DNA from: Palleronia aestuarii
GTDB lineage: Bacteria > Pseudomonadota > Alphaproteobacteria > Rhodobacterales > Rhodobacteraceae
Length of the DNA: 62,020 nt
Assembly (NCBI RefSeq): GCF_003253995.1
Contig: NZ_QKZL01000021.1
Span: 1 to 62,020, forward strand
Direction of reading: 5' to 3'
Both the position numbers and the translations under genes were made by a program. Shown here in pieces: positions 32,948 to 35,009 of the stretch (positions within the stretch are counted from its first letter, which is position 1; each line of letters opens with the position of its first letter). The notes beneath the pieces were generated by a model. The model was not told the DNA's origin. It worked only from the letters and a program-made list of their open reading frames with translations, and ran no database searches.

Positions 32948-33490
32948 ATGGACGCGATCCTGTTCCTGACCTTCCTGATCTGGCTCGCGACCCCCGTTCC
33001 AGAGGCCCCGGCCTGGGAGGCGAGCTATTACGAGGCGCAGCACGGAGACGAAATGAGCGTCTGCCTCGCGGGTGTCGTATCGCCGTCGAGCCGGTTCCAG
33101 CTCCGCATCTTCGACCGGCAAATGGATTTCTACCTCCACCGGACGGACTTCGCGATCCCGCTCGACCAGCCGCTGGGGGACGTCTATCTCGACCTCGCGG
33201 AGGAGGTCTACACGCTCGCGGTGGAGCCGATCCCTATCGCGGGCGACGACGTGGAGACGAACTCGCTCCTGCTCACCCCCGCGCATGCGGACTATCTCGA
33301 CATCGTCAACGGGTTGCGCGCGGGCGGCGTCGCGCGGCTCTGGTTCCCGGACGGCTCCGCCCGGAACGTGGATCTCGCGGGCAGCGAGGCCGCGCTCCTC
33401 GAAGTATTCGAGTGCTGGGACGCGCATGAAACCGGTTTCGCCGGCGGCAATCCGGTCGAATTTCCGCCAGCGGTCCAGCGCGTGGAGTGA
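32948..33490 (+). CDS. Small exported protein of unknown function
   Basis: 180 residues. An N-terminal hydrophobic stretch (MDAILFLTFLIWLATPVPEA) is a probable signal peptide. The rest is acidic with strand-like repeats: SVCLAGVVSPSSRFQLRIFDRQ, AIPLDQPLGDVYLDLAEEV, ARLWFPDGSARNVDLAGSEA, ending in a segment with one more Cys (EVFECWDAHETG), so a disulfide is possible. No known family is recognised. ATG at 32948 is chosen over GTG at 32915 because it begins the hydrophobic helix and follows GAAGG. It ends at a strong terminator. Confidence 0.65.
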   Translation: MDAILFLTFLIWLATPVPEAPAWEASYYEAQHGDEMSVCLAGVVSPSSRFQLRIFDRQMDFYLHRTDFAIPLDQPLGDVYLDLAEEVYTLAVEPIPIAGDDVETNSLLLTPAHADYLDIVNGLRAGGVARLWFPDGSARNVDLAGSEAALLEVFECWDAHETGFAGGNPVEFPPAVQRVE

Positions 33491-33506
33491 CCGGACGGTC
33501 GAACGC

Positions 33507-33536
33507 GAAAAGGCCACCCCGGGGGGCGGCCTTTTC
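33507..33536. terminator. Rho-independent terminator, probably bidirectional
   Basis: GAAAAGGCC at 33507-33515 pairs with GGCCTTTTC at 33528-33536, with CCCC/GGGG continuing the stem inside. The stem carries A and T tracts on both outer arms, so it works for the exported-protein gene on the plus strand and the 48-codon gene on the minus strand. Confidence 0.8.
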
Positions 33537-33565
33537 GTATCGGGTCTCGATCGTCGTGGCGCTGG

Positions 33566-33712
33566 CTAGAGCTTCTTCTTCGCCATCTTCGCCACACCGC
33601 TCGCGATCTGCGATTCCGGGCTGCGCTTACCGGTCGAGTGGGTGGTGCCGGTCGAGTGGGTGGTGGTCCGGCGGCCGCCACCCTTGAACATGTTGAGCAG
33701 GCGTCTGAGCAT
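33566..33712 (-). CDS. Small basic protein of 48 residues
   Basis: ATG at 33712 is preceded by an excellent ribosome binding site (GAGAGGAG, 6-7 bases away). The protein begins [19 protein letters not shown] and ends with KMAKKKL; it is strongly basic with a short amphipathic N-terminal helix. The middle is a duplicated hexapeptide, [12 protein letters not shown], encoded by an exact 18-bp tandem repeat. It shares a terminator with the gene at 32948. No function can be assigned; nucleic acid or membrane binding fits its charge. Confidence 0.65.
33630..33665. repeat. Exact 18-bp tandem duplication inside the 48-codon gene
   Basis: The 18-mer beginning CCGGTCGAGTGG occurs twice without change at 33630-33647 and 33648-33665. 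Its length is a multiple of three, so it adds six residues (THSTGT/K) without breaking the frame. This suggests a recent or variable duplication. Confidence 0.9.
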
Positions 33713-33784
33713 TGTATCTCTCCTCTCGTTAAGGGTCCAACACGTTCGGCGCTCCGATGTTCCGCGCCCGGCCGAAACACGATG

Positions 33785-33905
33785 TCCGTACACGTGCTGC
33801 ACATCTGCTGTACGCCCGATGCACGCGGCATGTACGCCCGCCGCACGCCTTCCATACGCCTCGTGTACGGGCTGTGTACGCCCAGTGTACGTTCGGTGTA
33901 CGCGG
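33785..33905. repeat. Array of eleven 11-bp tandem units, consensus nnTGTACGCCC
   Basis: Eleven units follow each other without gap. The core R-Y-A-C (mostly GTAC) starts at 33788, 33799, 33810, 33821, 33832, 33843, 33854, 33865, 33876, 33887 and 33898, exactly 11 bp apart. A and C of the core are invariant, the preceding G is present in 10 of 11 and the following G in 9 of 11; flanking bases vary. The array lies about 70 bp upstream of the 48-codon gene (minus strand) and about 165 bp upstream of the cold-shock gene (plus strand). One unit per helical turn would put all cores on about one face of the DNA. Confidence 0.88.
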
Positions 33906-34070
33906 AAAAAGCTGGACAGACGGGGCCGGACCTGTCAGACCGACGGCGCTAAGACGACCTCTATCGATCCCCTGTCTTCCCCTCGCGGGCGACACGCGCA
34001 CTCGATCCGGGCACACTTCGCCACGCTGTTGCACTTCCGCGAACAGACTGAAAAGACAGGAGAATTCACG
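33906..34070 (+). promoter_or_regulatory. Upstream region and probable long 5' leader of the cold-shock gene
   Basis: No gene in these 165 bp. Cold-shock genes usually have long, structured leaders that control translation, and this stretch fits that in position. A clear AGGAG at about 34058-34062 lies before the ATG at 34071. No exact promoter could be fixed. Confidence 0.4.
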
Positions 34071-34277
34071 ATGGCCAAAGGCACCGTGAAATGGTTCAAC
34101 GCAACCAAAGGCTTCGGCTTCATCGCGCCCGAGACCGGTGGTAAGGACGTGTTCGTCCACATTTCCGCCGTCGAGCGTGCAGGCCTCACCGGCCTCGCCG
34201 ACGACCAGAAAGTCGAGTACGACATCGAATCCGGCCGCGACGGCCGCCAGAGCGCGACGAACCTGCAGCTCGCCTGA
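34071..34277 (+). CDS. Cold-shock protein (CspA family)
   Basis: 68 residues, a single cold-shock domain. Both RNA-binding motifs are present: KGFGFI (RNP1) and VFVHIS (RNP2), after the canonical start [14 protein letters not shown]. It binds single-stranded RNA and DNA and melts mRNA structure. AGGAG stands 8 bases before the ATG, and a perfect terminator follows. The upstream repeat array may take part in its control. Confidence 0.95.
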
Positions 34278-34301
34278 TAAGGCACTCGAATCATTCGGAA
34301 A

Positions 34302-34327
34302 GGCGCGGGCAATCCCCGCGCCTTTTT
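34302..34327 (+). terminator. Rho-independent terminator of the cold-shock gene
   Basis: GGCGCGGG at 34302-34309 pairs with CCCGCGCC at 34315-34322, with a five-base loop and a run of five T at 34323-34327. The T run overlaps the stop of the convergent ParA gene. Confidence 0.9.
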
Positions 34328-34950
34328 CATGCGATGCGGGCCAGGATCTCGTCCCTGAGCGCCGAAATCTCGGCACTCCAGGCCCCCTTCCCGCGTTCGA
34401 GCACGCCAAGCCCCTGGCCCAGCGTCTCCGCATAGACGACCCGGTTTCCCAATACAGTCTCCGCCCGCACCGCCTCGCGATCCGCCAGCGCCGTTGAAAT
34501 CTCGTCGGAAAGCCGCGTCCCCGCCTTGTAGCGGTTGAGCACGATCATCGTCGGCCGCCCGACCCTCTCCGCAAGGTCGAGGATCGAATCCACCGCCCAG
34601 AGATCGACCTGGCTCGTCGCGACCGGAACCAGAACCAGGTCGCTTTCCCGCAGCGCCGGGCGAAGATCGGAATCGACCTTCGGTGGCGTATCGACGATCA
34701 CGAAATCGCAGCTTTTCCGCAGCTTGTCGCATTCGTATCCCACGCCCCAAGCGCTCGACGTCGCGAATTCCATGCCCGGATCGCCGATCTCGCGGCGCGT
34801 CATGAACCAGCGCCCGAGGGAACCTTGAGGGTCGGTGTCGAGAACGGCGACGGCATGTCCCGCCTGCTGCAGCGCTACGGCGATGTTGGCCGCGATCGTG
34901 GTCTTGCCCGAGCCGCCCTTTTGCTGGGCGATCGTGATGACATGGGCCAA
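34327..34950 (-). CDS. ParA/Soj-like ATPase (orphan)
   Basis: 207 residues from a TTG at 34950, giving MAHVITIAQQKGGSGKTTIA with the deviant Walker A motif KGGSGKTT at the N-terminus. GGGAGG lies seven bases upstream. Later motifs are VLDTDPQGSLGRWF (A') and DFVIVDTPPKVDSD (Walker B). A longer form from GTG at 35013 would overlap the exoD stop but adds an atypical 21-residue lead. No parB or parS-like sequence is beside it, so it is not the chromosome partition pair; such lone ParA/MinD-like ATPases position various cargo. The target is unknown. Confidence 0.85.
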   Translation of the reverse strand: MAHVITIAQQKGGSGKTTIAANIAVALQQAGHAVAVLDTDPQGSLGRWFMTRREIGDPGMEFATSSAWGVGYECDKLRKSCDFVIVDTPPKVDSDLRPALRESDLVLVPVATSQVDLWAVDSILDLAERVGRPTMIVLNRYKAGTRLSDEISTALADREAVRAETVLGNRVVYAETLGQGLGVLERGKGAWSAEISALRDEILARIA

Positions 34951-35009
34951 TGCGGCGCCTCCCAGGGTTTTCCCCACGGACCTTACGGCAACCTTCGGTC
35001 GGGCCGCAA

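Follow-up and report, generated by a model that had tools for sequence, protein, structure and literature searches.

The array and its surroundings

The window, that is the whole stretch of 62,020 nucleotides that was analysed, contains an array of 11-bp units located between a small open reading frame (ORF) and a cold-shock gene. The features of this site are the following:

33566..33712, minus strand: basic ORF of 48 codons flanking the array, without Pfam match; a part in the array system is not supported
33776..33907, plus strand: 11-bp-unit array, 12 units of consensus TGYACG plus five variable bases, with AC in 12 of 12 units
33776..33863, plus strand: 5' tail of the array, eight units, three with a perfect TGYACG core and five without
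33864..33907, plus strand: strong 3' head of the array, four TGTACG units in succession
33952..34070, plus strand: leader of the cold-shock gene, outside the array, kept in congeners with or without an array
34071..34277, plus strand: flanking cold-shock domain gene (Pfam CSD, E 3.1e-24)
34327..34968, minus strand: flanking ParA/MipZ-type ATPase gene (Pfam AAA_31, MipZ), start codon uncertain

The original prediction described eleven units in exact 11-bp phase. We confirmed this description, which proved to be an understatement: the eleven AC cores between 33790 and 33901 follow each other in exact 11-bp steps, AACACGATGTC at 33776 constitutes a twelfth unit with a weak core, thereby extending the array to 33776-33907, and the genome holds at least 26 such arrays. 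The imperfect cores of the 5' tail are AACACG, CGTACA, TGCACA, CGCACG and CATACG. The phased AC run of the window reaches 12, compared to a maximum of 6 in 40 first-order Markov sequences of equal length. Searching for three successive TGYACGN5 units with up to 2 mismatches gave 6 matches in the window, all inside the array, for an expected number of 0.01 (100 dinucleotide shuffles). Tandem Repeats Finder detected the array only as fragments.

The array is separated from the cold-shock gene by 163 bp and from the 48-codon ORF by 72 bp counted from 33785, or 63 bp from 33776, close to the gaps of 165 and 70 bp given previously. The 48-codon ORF contains an 18-bp perfect tandem repeat (33630-33665). 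Scanning positions 33480-34340 returned one promoter-like site upstream of this ORF (0.1 expected) and one terminator-like site (0.8 expected). No Rfam family matched the window at the gathering threshold, cold-shock leader included. This leader (33952-34070) is strongly conserved among congeners and is a candidate cold-shock 5' UTR element; its AGACGACCTCTATCGA is present in 8 of 14 loci.

The ParA/MipZ-type gene served as the anchor for comparing this site across congeners. An ABC-transporter protein was dropped as a site anchor because it has too many paralogs. A cold-shock gene lies beside the ParA-type gene in 7 of 13 congeners. Six of these seven show the conserved leader, with no lag-11 signal or visible array, and a small ORF similar to that of the window accompanies one array-less site (genome G011). 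The cold-shock site of G005 carries a three-unit array, CCTACGGGACT CCGACGCGATT CATACC, recognized by eye and by a three-unit CCKAC search, and its lag-11 score is tied with that of another lag.

Arrays across the genome

We searched the genome of the window (G000; 4.54 Mb, 77 contigs) with a three-unit TGYACG pattern, using the reversed pattern as a control. With up to 3 mismatches there were 139 forward and 131 reverse matches (control 39 and 43); exact matches numbered 40 forward and 30 reverse (control 0 and 0), and all 70 fall within the 25 loci defined in this genome. These loci, 24 stretches and the window, comprise at least 26 arrays of 8-13 units. The survey at up to 3 mismatches is based on the first 100 of the 270 matches, and weaker arrays may exist. 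At one locus (L014), a 3-bp slip divides the array into 8 and 4 units, showing that the 11-bp phase is not absolute; this array entered the unit statistics with 8 of its 12 units.

Over the 282 units of the 26 arrays, core position 5 is C in 100%, position 4 is A in 98% (rounded) and position 2 is G in 94%, while the five spacer positions hold 0.13-0.22 bits each. The arrays have a common internal gradient. Their three 3'-most units are mostly TGTACG, with T at position 3 in 77-92%, and units 4 to 11 from the 3' end are weaker, with T at this position in 23-50%; the twelfth unit, which exists in ten arrays, has it in 70%. Neighbouring units share 1.67 of their 5 spacer bases and units of different arrays share 1.75. 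Neighbouring spacers are thus no more alike than spacers of separate arrays and recent slippage is not seen, in agreement with the initial suggestion that a fixed core within varying flanks speaks against recent slippage copying. The sequences flanking the arrays also differ from one array to another.

All 26 arrays are located in, or at the edge of, intergenic gaps when genes are predicted with a simple codon model, and the predicted ends of some genes overlap an array by 1 to 89 bases. Ten arrays have both neighbouring genes oriented along the array and six have both against it, while five lie between divergent and five between convergent genes. Among the neighbours with families tested, the genes are unrelated housekeeping genes. 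One array separates hisB from hisH. Between the hisB stop and the hisH codons for DTDSGN there are 199 nt in this genome versus 14-109 nt in 12 of 13 congeners; the thirteenth, G005, has no match to the DTDSGN motif and its hisB-hisH distance is short by eye. Inspection by eye revealed no TGYACG array in the hisB-hisH gap of any of the 13 congeners, and in G002 the gap (109 nt) holds four CCGAC-type units in place of TGYACG. As a side observation, TGTACG is rare outside the arrays, with 6 and 14 occurrences per strand in 296.5 kb of G000, perhaps owing to codon usage or avoidance.

Array orientation follows replication

Array orientation follows the direction of replication and not that of the flanking genes. 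GC skew was calculated in the direction of each array over windows of 3-10 kb (62 kb for the array of the window), and cores other than TGYACG were oriented by superposing their AC on the AC of TGYACG, with one choice per core type. The oriented skew is negative at 25 of the 25 loci of G000, where the second array of L012 carries no value of its own. It is also negative at 56 of 60 loci in six other genera (G236, G109, G142, G367, G031 and G024, 10 loci each), in 38 of 40 CCGAC-type arrays of congeners (G003 12/13, G009 7/7, G002 16/17, G010 2/2, G006 1/1), in 25 of 26 arrays with CATAC or TGYAYG cores (G086, G107 and G100) and at 37 of 47 named loci. All sets together, the sign is negative in 181 of 198 cases and opposite in 17, many values being near zero. 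These sets include all 10 matches of G236, G109 and G031, 10 of the 24 of G142, 10 of the 19 of G367 and 10 of the 12 of G024. The CCGAC set leaves out the arrays of congeners G012, G005 and G007, and the CATAC/TGYAYG set leaves out 5 of the 13 arrays of G086 and 1 of the 10 of G100. The 47 named loci were hand-picked by title and look among the matches listed (at least 110 stretches); L114 (Rhodobaculum), outside these 47, has an oriented skew of +0.009. Among 17 further loci beyond the 198, 14 are negative; some of the 17 are probably chance matches, and L559 is the same array as L373.

To separate polarity from gene direction, we fitted a regression over the 198 arrays. Its polarity term is -0.045 (standard error 0.0025, t -18.1), and its gene-direction term is small. 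The cuts of these data were slightly different, with 180 of 198 negative raw values and 182 of 198 after correction. For 172 arrays, the left flanking gene runs along the array in 88 cases and against it in 77, and the right one in 88 and 82. Being near even, the direction of the flanking genes does not explain that of the arrays. In these counts, sites inherited from a common ancestor are to some extent dependent on each other, whereas the 25 loci of G000 are separate sites.

On the chromosome of G236, whose first gene is dnaA and whose skew switches near 2.5 Mb, the arrays are on the minus strand in 4 of 4 cases on the first arm and on the plus strand in 5 of 6 on the second. Taken with the skew, this shows that the TGYACG strand runs against leading-strand synthesis, that is, it points toward the origin. 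Two sites of G009, at 0.87 and 0.97 Mb, are consistent with the 8-kb skew and at odds with neighbouring 15-kb samples; one of these two sites disagreeing with the large-scale skew (L351) is degenerate.

These data do not support the proposal that the array acts on the cold-shock gene or on the 48-codon gene. All four contexts of gene orientation occur, array orientation tracks replication, and six of the seven congeners with a cold-shock gene at this site have no visible array there.

Arrays are scarce near the terminus of three chromosomes

We located 30 pattern-found sites on three complete chromosomes that each start at dnaA (G236, G086 and G009), with terminus positions set by eye after sampling the skew at 20 places on each chromosome; the samples of the G086 chromosome suggest inversions near the origin. 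The mean normalised distance of the sites to the terminus is 0.626 (p 0.008), and none of the 30 lies within 0.235 of it (p 0.0003). This is suggestive of arrays avoiding the terminus region on these three chromosomes.

Distribution and core types in relatives

Of 394 genomes of the family, 30 contain exact three-unit TGYACG matches, that of the window included, and the reversed control matches in 2 genomes, once each. Six of the 29 other genomes were followed up. Four-unit TGYACG arrays with at most 1 mismatch were found in 0 of 13 genomes of the same genus, in 1 of 22 genomes representing other genera of the family and in 0 of 24 representing other families of the class. Within the genus, a different core is found: four CCGAC units with up to 2 mismatches are present in 8 of 14 genomes (27 matches in G003, 19 in G002, 7 in G009 and 1-3 in each of the other five; control 1 overall), and three CCKAC units likewise in 8 of 14 (G002 40, G010 21, G003 7, G012 6, G009 5, G005 3, G007 2, G006 1; control 2 overall). 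For CATAC the reversed-pattern control is void because this core reads identically backwards.

In G236 there are exactly 10 exact copies, none with 1 mismatch and three overlapping ones with 2, against 4 control matches at up to 2 mismatches. Arrays in other genera often have only 3-4 units. Over 60 of them in six genera, 24 have both neighbouring genes along and 16 both against, while 10 lie between divergent and 10 between convergent genes; one case among these 60 (L292) is within a called gene. Array-bearing records among the matches listed include Nioella, Jannaschia, Roseicyclus and Paracoccus. At four Paracoccus loci (L078, L094, L103 and L117) a similar stretch, CACAGCGAAAATCCCAGCA and variants, follows the array, and the element there may exceed the array. 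Bacteroidales metagenome-assembled genomes (L077, L081, L088, L097, L127 and others) display four TGTACG units with 11-bp spacing and then an inverted set, potentially forming long hairpins; these dispersed 4+4 inverted elements differ from the one-way arrays described here and are a different kind of element. Viral contigs contain 16 stretches with four units, most being near-identical repeats by eye. Two IMG/VR contigs (L534 and L535) carry arrays with variable spacers resembling the chromosomal ones, in flanks that may be viral or host.

The same sites carry different cores

Shared sites were identified by blastp of the proteins flanking 172 arrays, and the gene names in G000 were confirmed with NCBIfam. 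Some of the sites are occupied in other genera too, by arrays of the same period with other cores. Arrays are found in the gap before chorismate mutase/rpsP in G000, G002, G024, G109 and G236; at the end of gltD in G000, G003, G109, G236 and strain W635; at leuD in G000, G003, G236 and G367; at lpd in G000, G142 and G236; and at an ATP-dependent DNA ligase in G000, G003 and G010. An array is found at serC-serA in G000, in G367 and in G024, where it is turned relative to the genes, with a skew of -0.002 that is too weak to tie the turned array to replication. Four of the 10 sites of G236 are also sites of G000, leuD and lpd sharing one flank only; by our estimate, about 0.06 shared sites would be expected if arrays were placed at random among some 4,400 genes.

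The chorismate mutase gene was found in 79 genomes. In the 30 loci returned for this site, 8 show a clear lag-11 signal and the other 22 show none, many of them without a gap. The cores seen by eye are TGYACG, TGYAYG, TGCACG, TGTGCAT, GTCATAC, CATATG and CCATACG. At the leuD site, 4 of 30 loci have lag-11 arrays. Presence is thus sporadic at both sites, which indicates that no single site is essential.

A proposed polar mark on the chromosome arms

The arrays suggest a directional chromosome mark that would be new to description. Our search of the open-licence literature, subscription papers and preprints being outside its scope, found no earlier description of such arrays, and the available part of a paper on dif and FtsK in Dinoroseobacter (PMC7901474) does not mention them.

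We propose, with a probability of roughly 45%, that the array of the window is one copy of a dispersed, replication-oriented site, on which a head-to-tail filament would form a polar mark on the chromosome arms. A candidate small DNA-binding protein, either a winged-helix protein of the BldC/RdfS/Apl sort or a ribbon-helix-helix protein, would nucleate on the strong 3' head. This putative protein would then polymerise head to tail along the phased sites. Such a filament would be asymmetric, so that machines arriving from the origin side and from the terminus side would meet different faces. It may act as a polar mark, a loader or a barrier on the arms for an SMC complex, the replisome or a repair translocase; that the filament would signal to an origin-terminus machine is what we infer from the orientation. 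Co-evolution of the protein with its cognate core would shift the core between genera, and even within the genus of the window, while the period and some of the sites stay. The original prediction had suggested, beside bent DNA, a cooperative regulator filament on one face of the DNA; by analogy with what the accessible part of the BldC study describes (PMC5859096), this was probably a good guess at the molecular level.

In a more specific form of this proposal, the arrays would be a counterpart of oriented chromatin boundaries, where the filament tells SMC most likely, or else the replisome, its direction on the arms, and where specificity is rewritten between lineages with many sites kept. 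We hold this version to be somewhat unlikely. If the proposal is true, the presence along the arms of some tens of large polar sites, which stay at shared places as their core is rewritten, would point to a novel directional reader of the chromosome, and the arrays would offer a system for studying how DNA-binding specificity changes at many sites at once.

Alternative explanations

A non-autonomous mobile element inserting as a single strand on one strand of the fork, in the manner of IS200/IS605 or RAYT/REP elements, would likewise give a replication-linked orientation; strand bias is a property of these elements. The arrays also occupy gaps that are small or absent in relatives: the hisB-hisH gap is longer here than in congeners, and in many genomes without the array there is almost no gap between the GNAT and the chorismate mutase gene. 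This entry into tight operons, together with the sporadic presence at the chorismate mutase and leuD sites, keeps a strand-biased mobile element as the main rival, which we nevertheless judge unlikely. Indeed, the arrays of G000 are not copies of one another, since spacer identity is no lower between arrays than within them and their flanks differ. The 10 copies of G236 are all exact over 18 positions, with no one-mismatch relic, different genera have different cores at the same sites, and the RNA fold of the window array is unremarkable (z -0.94 and -1.30).

The Pho box is an 11-bp element, and the arrays might be operators with OmpR/PhoB-like 11-bp half-sites for a transcription regulator of the adjacent genes, in line with the action on both neighbours that the original prediction had suggested. 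Some response regulators do bind direct repeats, according to the accessible part of the BldC study (PMC5859096), and at L011, L018 and L020 the array ends 8-11 bp before a called start codon. Over the whole set, however, placement relative to gene starts is not consistent: flanking genes run with and against the arrays about equally often, some arrays sit within operons or between convergent genes, the tested neighbours are unrelated housekeeping genes and orientation follows skew. These data make the operator explanation improbable.

We consider it very improbable that the arrays are the densest form of a dispersed octamer-type polar signal such as KOPS/AIMS or Chi. The arrays do share with such signals a polarity with respect to replication, but single TGYACG hexamers outside the arrays of G000 occur 91 times in the array sense and 85 times in the antisense in 296.5 kb, without 11-bp pairs. 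Samples of G236 gave 145 and 126 single hexamers and no such pairs, and those of G086, with arrays unmasked, 26 and 35 CATACG, 16 and 11 CCATACG and 2 pairs. Avoidance of the terminus also speaks against this explanation. A neutral strain-specific minisatellite, one of the outcomes that the original prediction named as its refutation, has in its favour the tandem organisation and the lack of four-unit TGYACG arrays in all 13 congeners, and is scarcely credible given that 26 uniformly oriented arrays share one core, that neighbouring units are no more alike than distant ones, that sites are shared across genera and that 0.01 matches are expected by chance.

Comparison with known systems

To our knowledge, oriented and widely spaced chromosomal sites are few in bacteria, and the known ones either function at the terminus or take the form of short octamers that are dispersed. 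The prediction that the array matches no standard element, CRISPR and REP being excluded, holds on the features tested and extends to KOPS, Chi and Ter. CRISPR, with repeats of some 20-50 bp and unique spacers, was rejected on the period of 11 bp and the core of 6 bp. REP and BIME elements resemble the arrays in being short, dispersed, intergenic and species-specific; REPs are palindromic and near-identical, and this class was rejected because the array units are neither palindromic nor near-identical copies.

RTP fork-trap sites flank the terminus. The arrays resemble the Tus-Ter and RTP systems in number, with from ten to several tens of non-palindromic sites on a chromosome, and in having an orientation tied to replication, in 181 of 198 cases by local GC skew. 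Ter sites flank the terminus, according to the accessible part of the literature. Unlike these systems, the arrays avoid the terminus, have 3-13 phased units and vary in core by genus at shared sites. A terminus fork trap is thus disfavoured, with 0 of 30 sites near the terminus and a mean normalised distance of 0.626.

The density of KOPS and AIMS rises toward the terminus. KOPS, read by FtsK, and AIMS, which are 8-bp sequences in the accessible part of PMC5993296, share with the arrays a polarity with respect to replication. In contrast, single units here are not polar and, over the 30 sites, array density does not rise toward the terminus. The array hexamer is not a frequent strand-skewed single motif of the Chi type either. 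The non-polar single hexamers and the avoidance of the terminus argue against KOPS, AIMS and Chi.

The parC of plasmid R1 and iteron centromeres are built from some ten direct repeats of 11 bp, to which a filament-forming protein binds. Such a centromere is present once per plasmid, whereas the arrays number 10-26 or more per chromosome and are oriented by replication. There is also a likeness to the sites of BldC, RdfS and Apl. In the accessible parts of these studies, the protomers of BldC line up head to tail and in a fixed direction on direct repeats that vary in number (PMC5859096), the direct repeats recognised by Apl are spaced by one helix turn, and RdfS is a winged-helix protein that forms oligomers (PMC11963761, PMC7498355). 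By analogy, directional or oligomeric binding of direct repeats may be common to these proteins and to a putative binder of the arrays, which are directional tandem direct repeats near the helical period. BldC, RdfS and Apl regulate promoters or excision, and the BldC repeats are spaced by 9 bp, in contrast to the 11 bp of the arrays.
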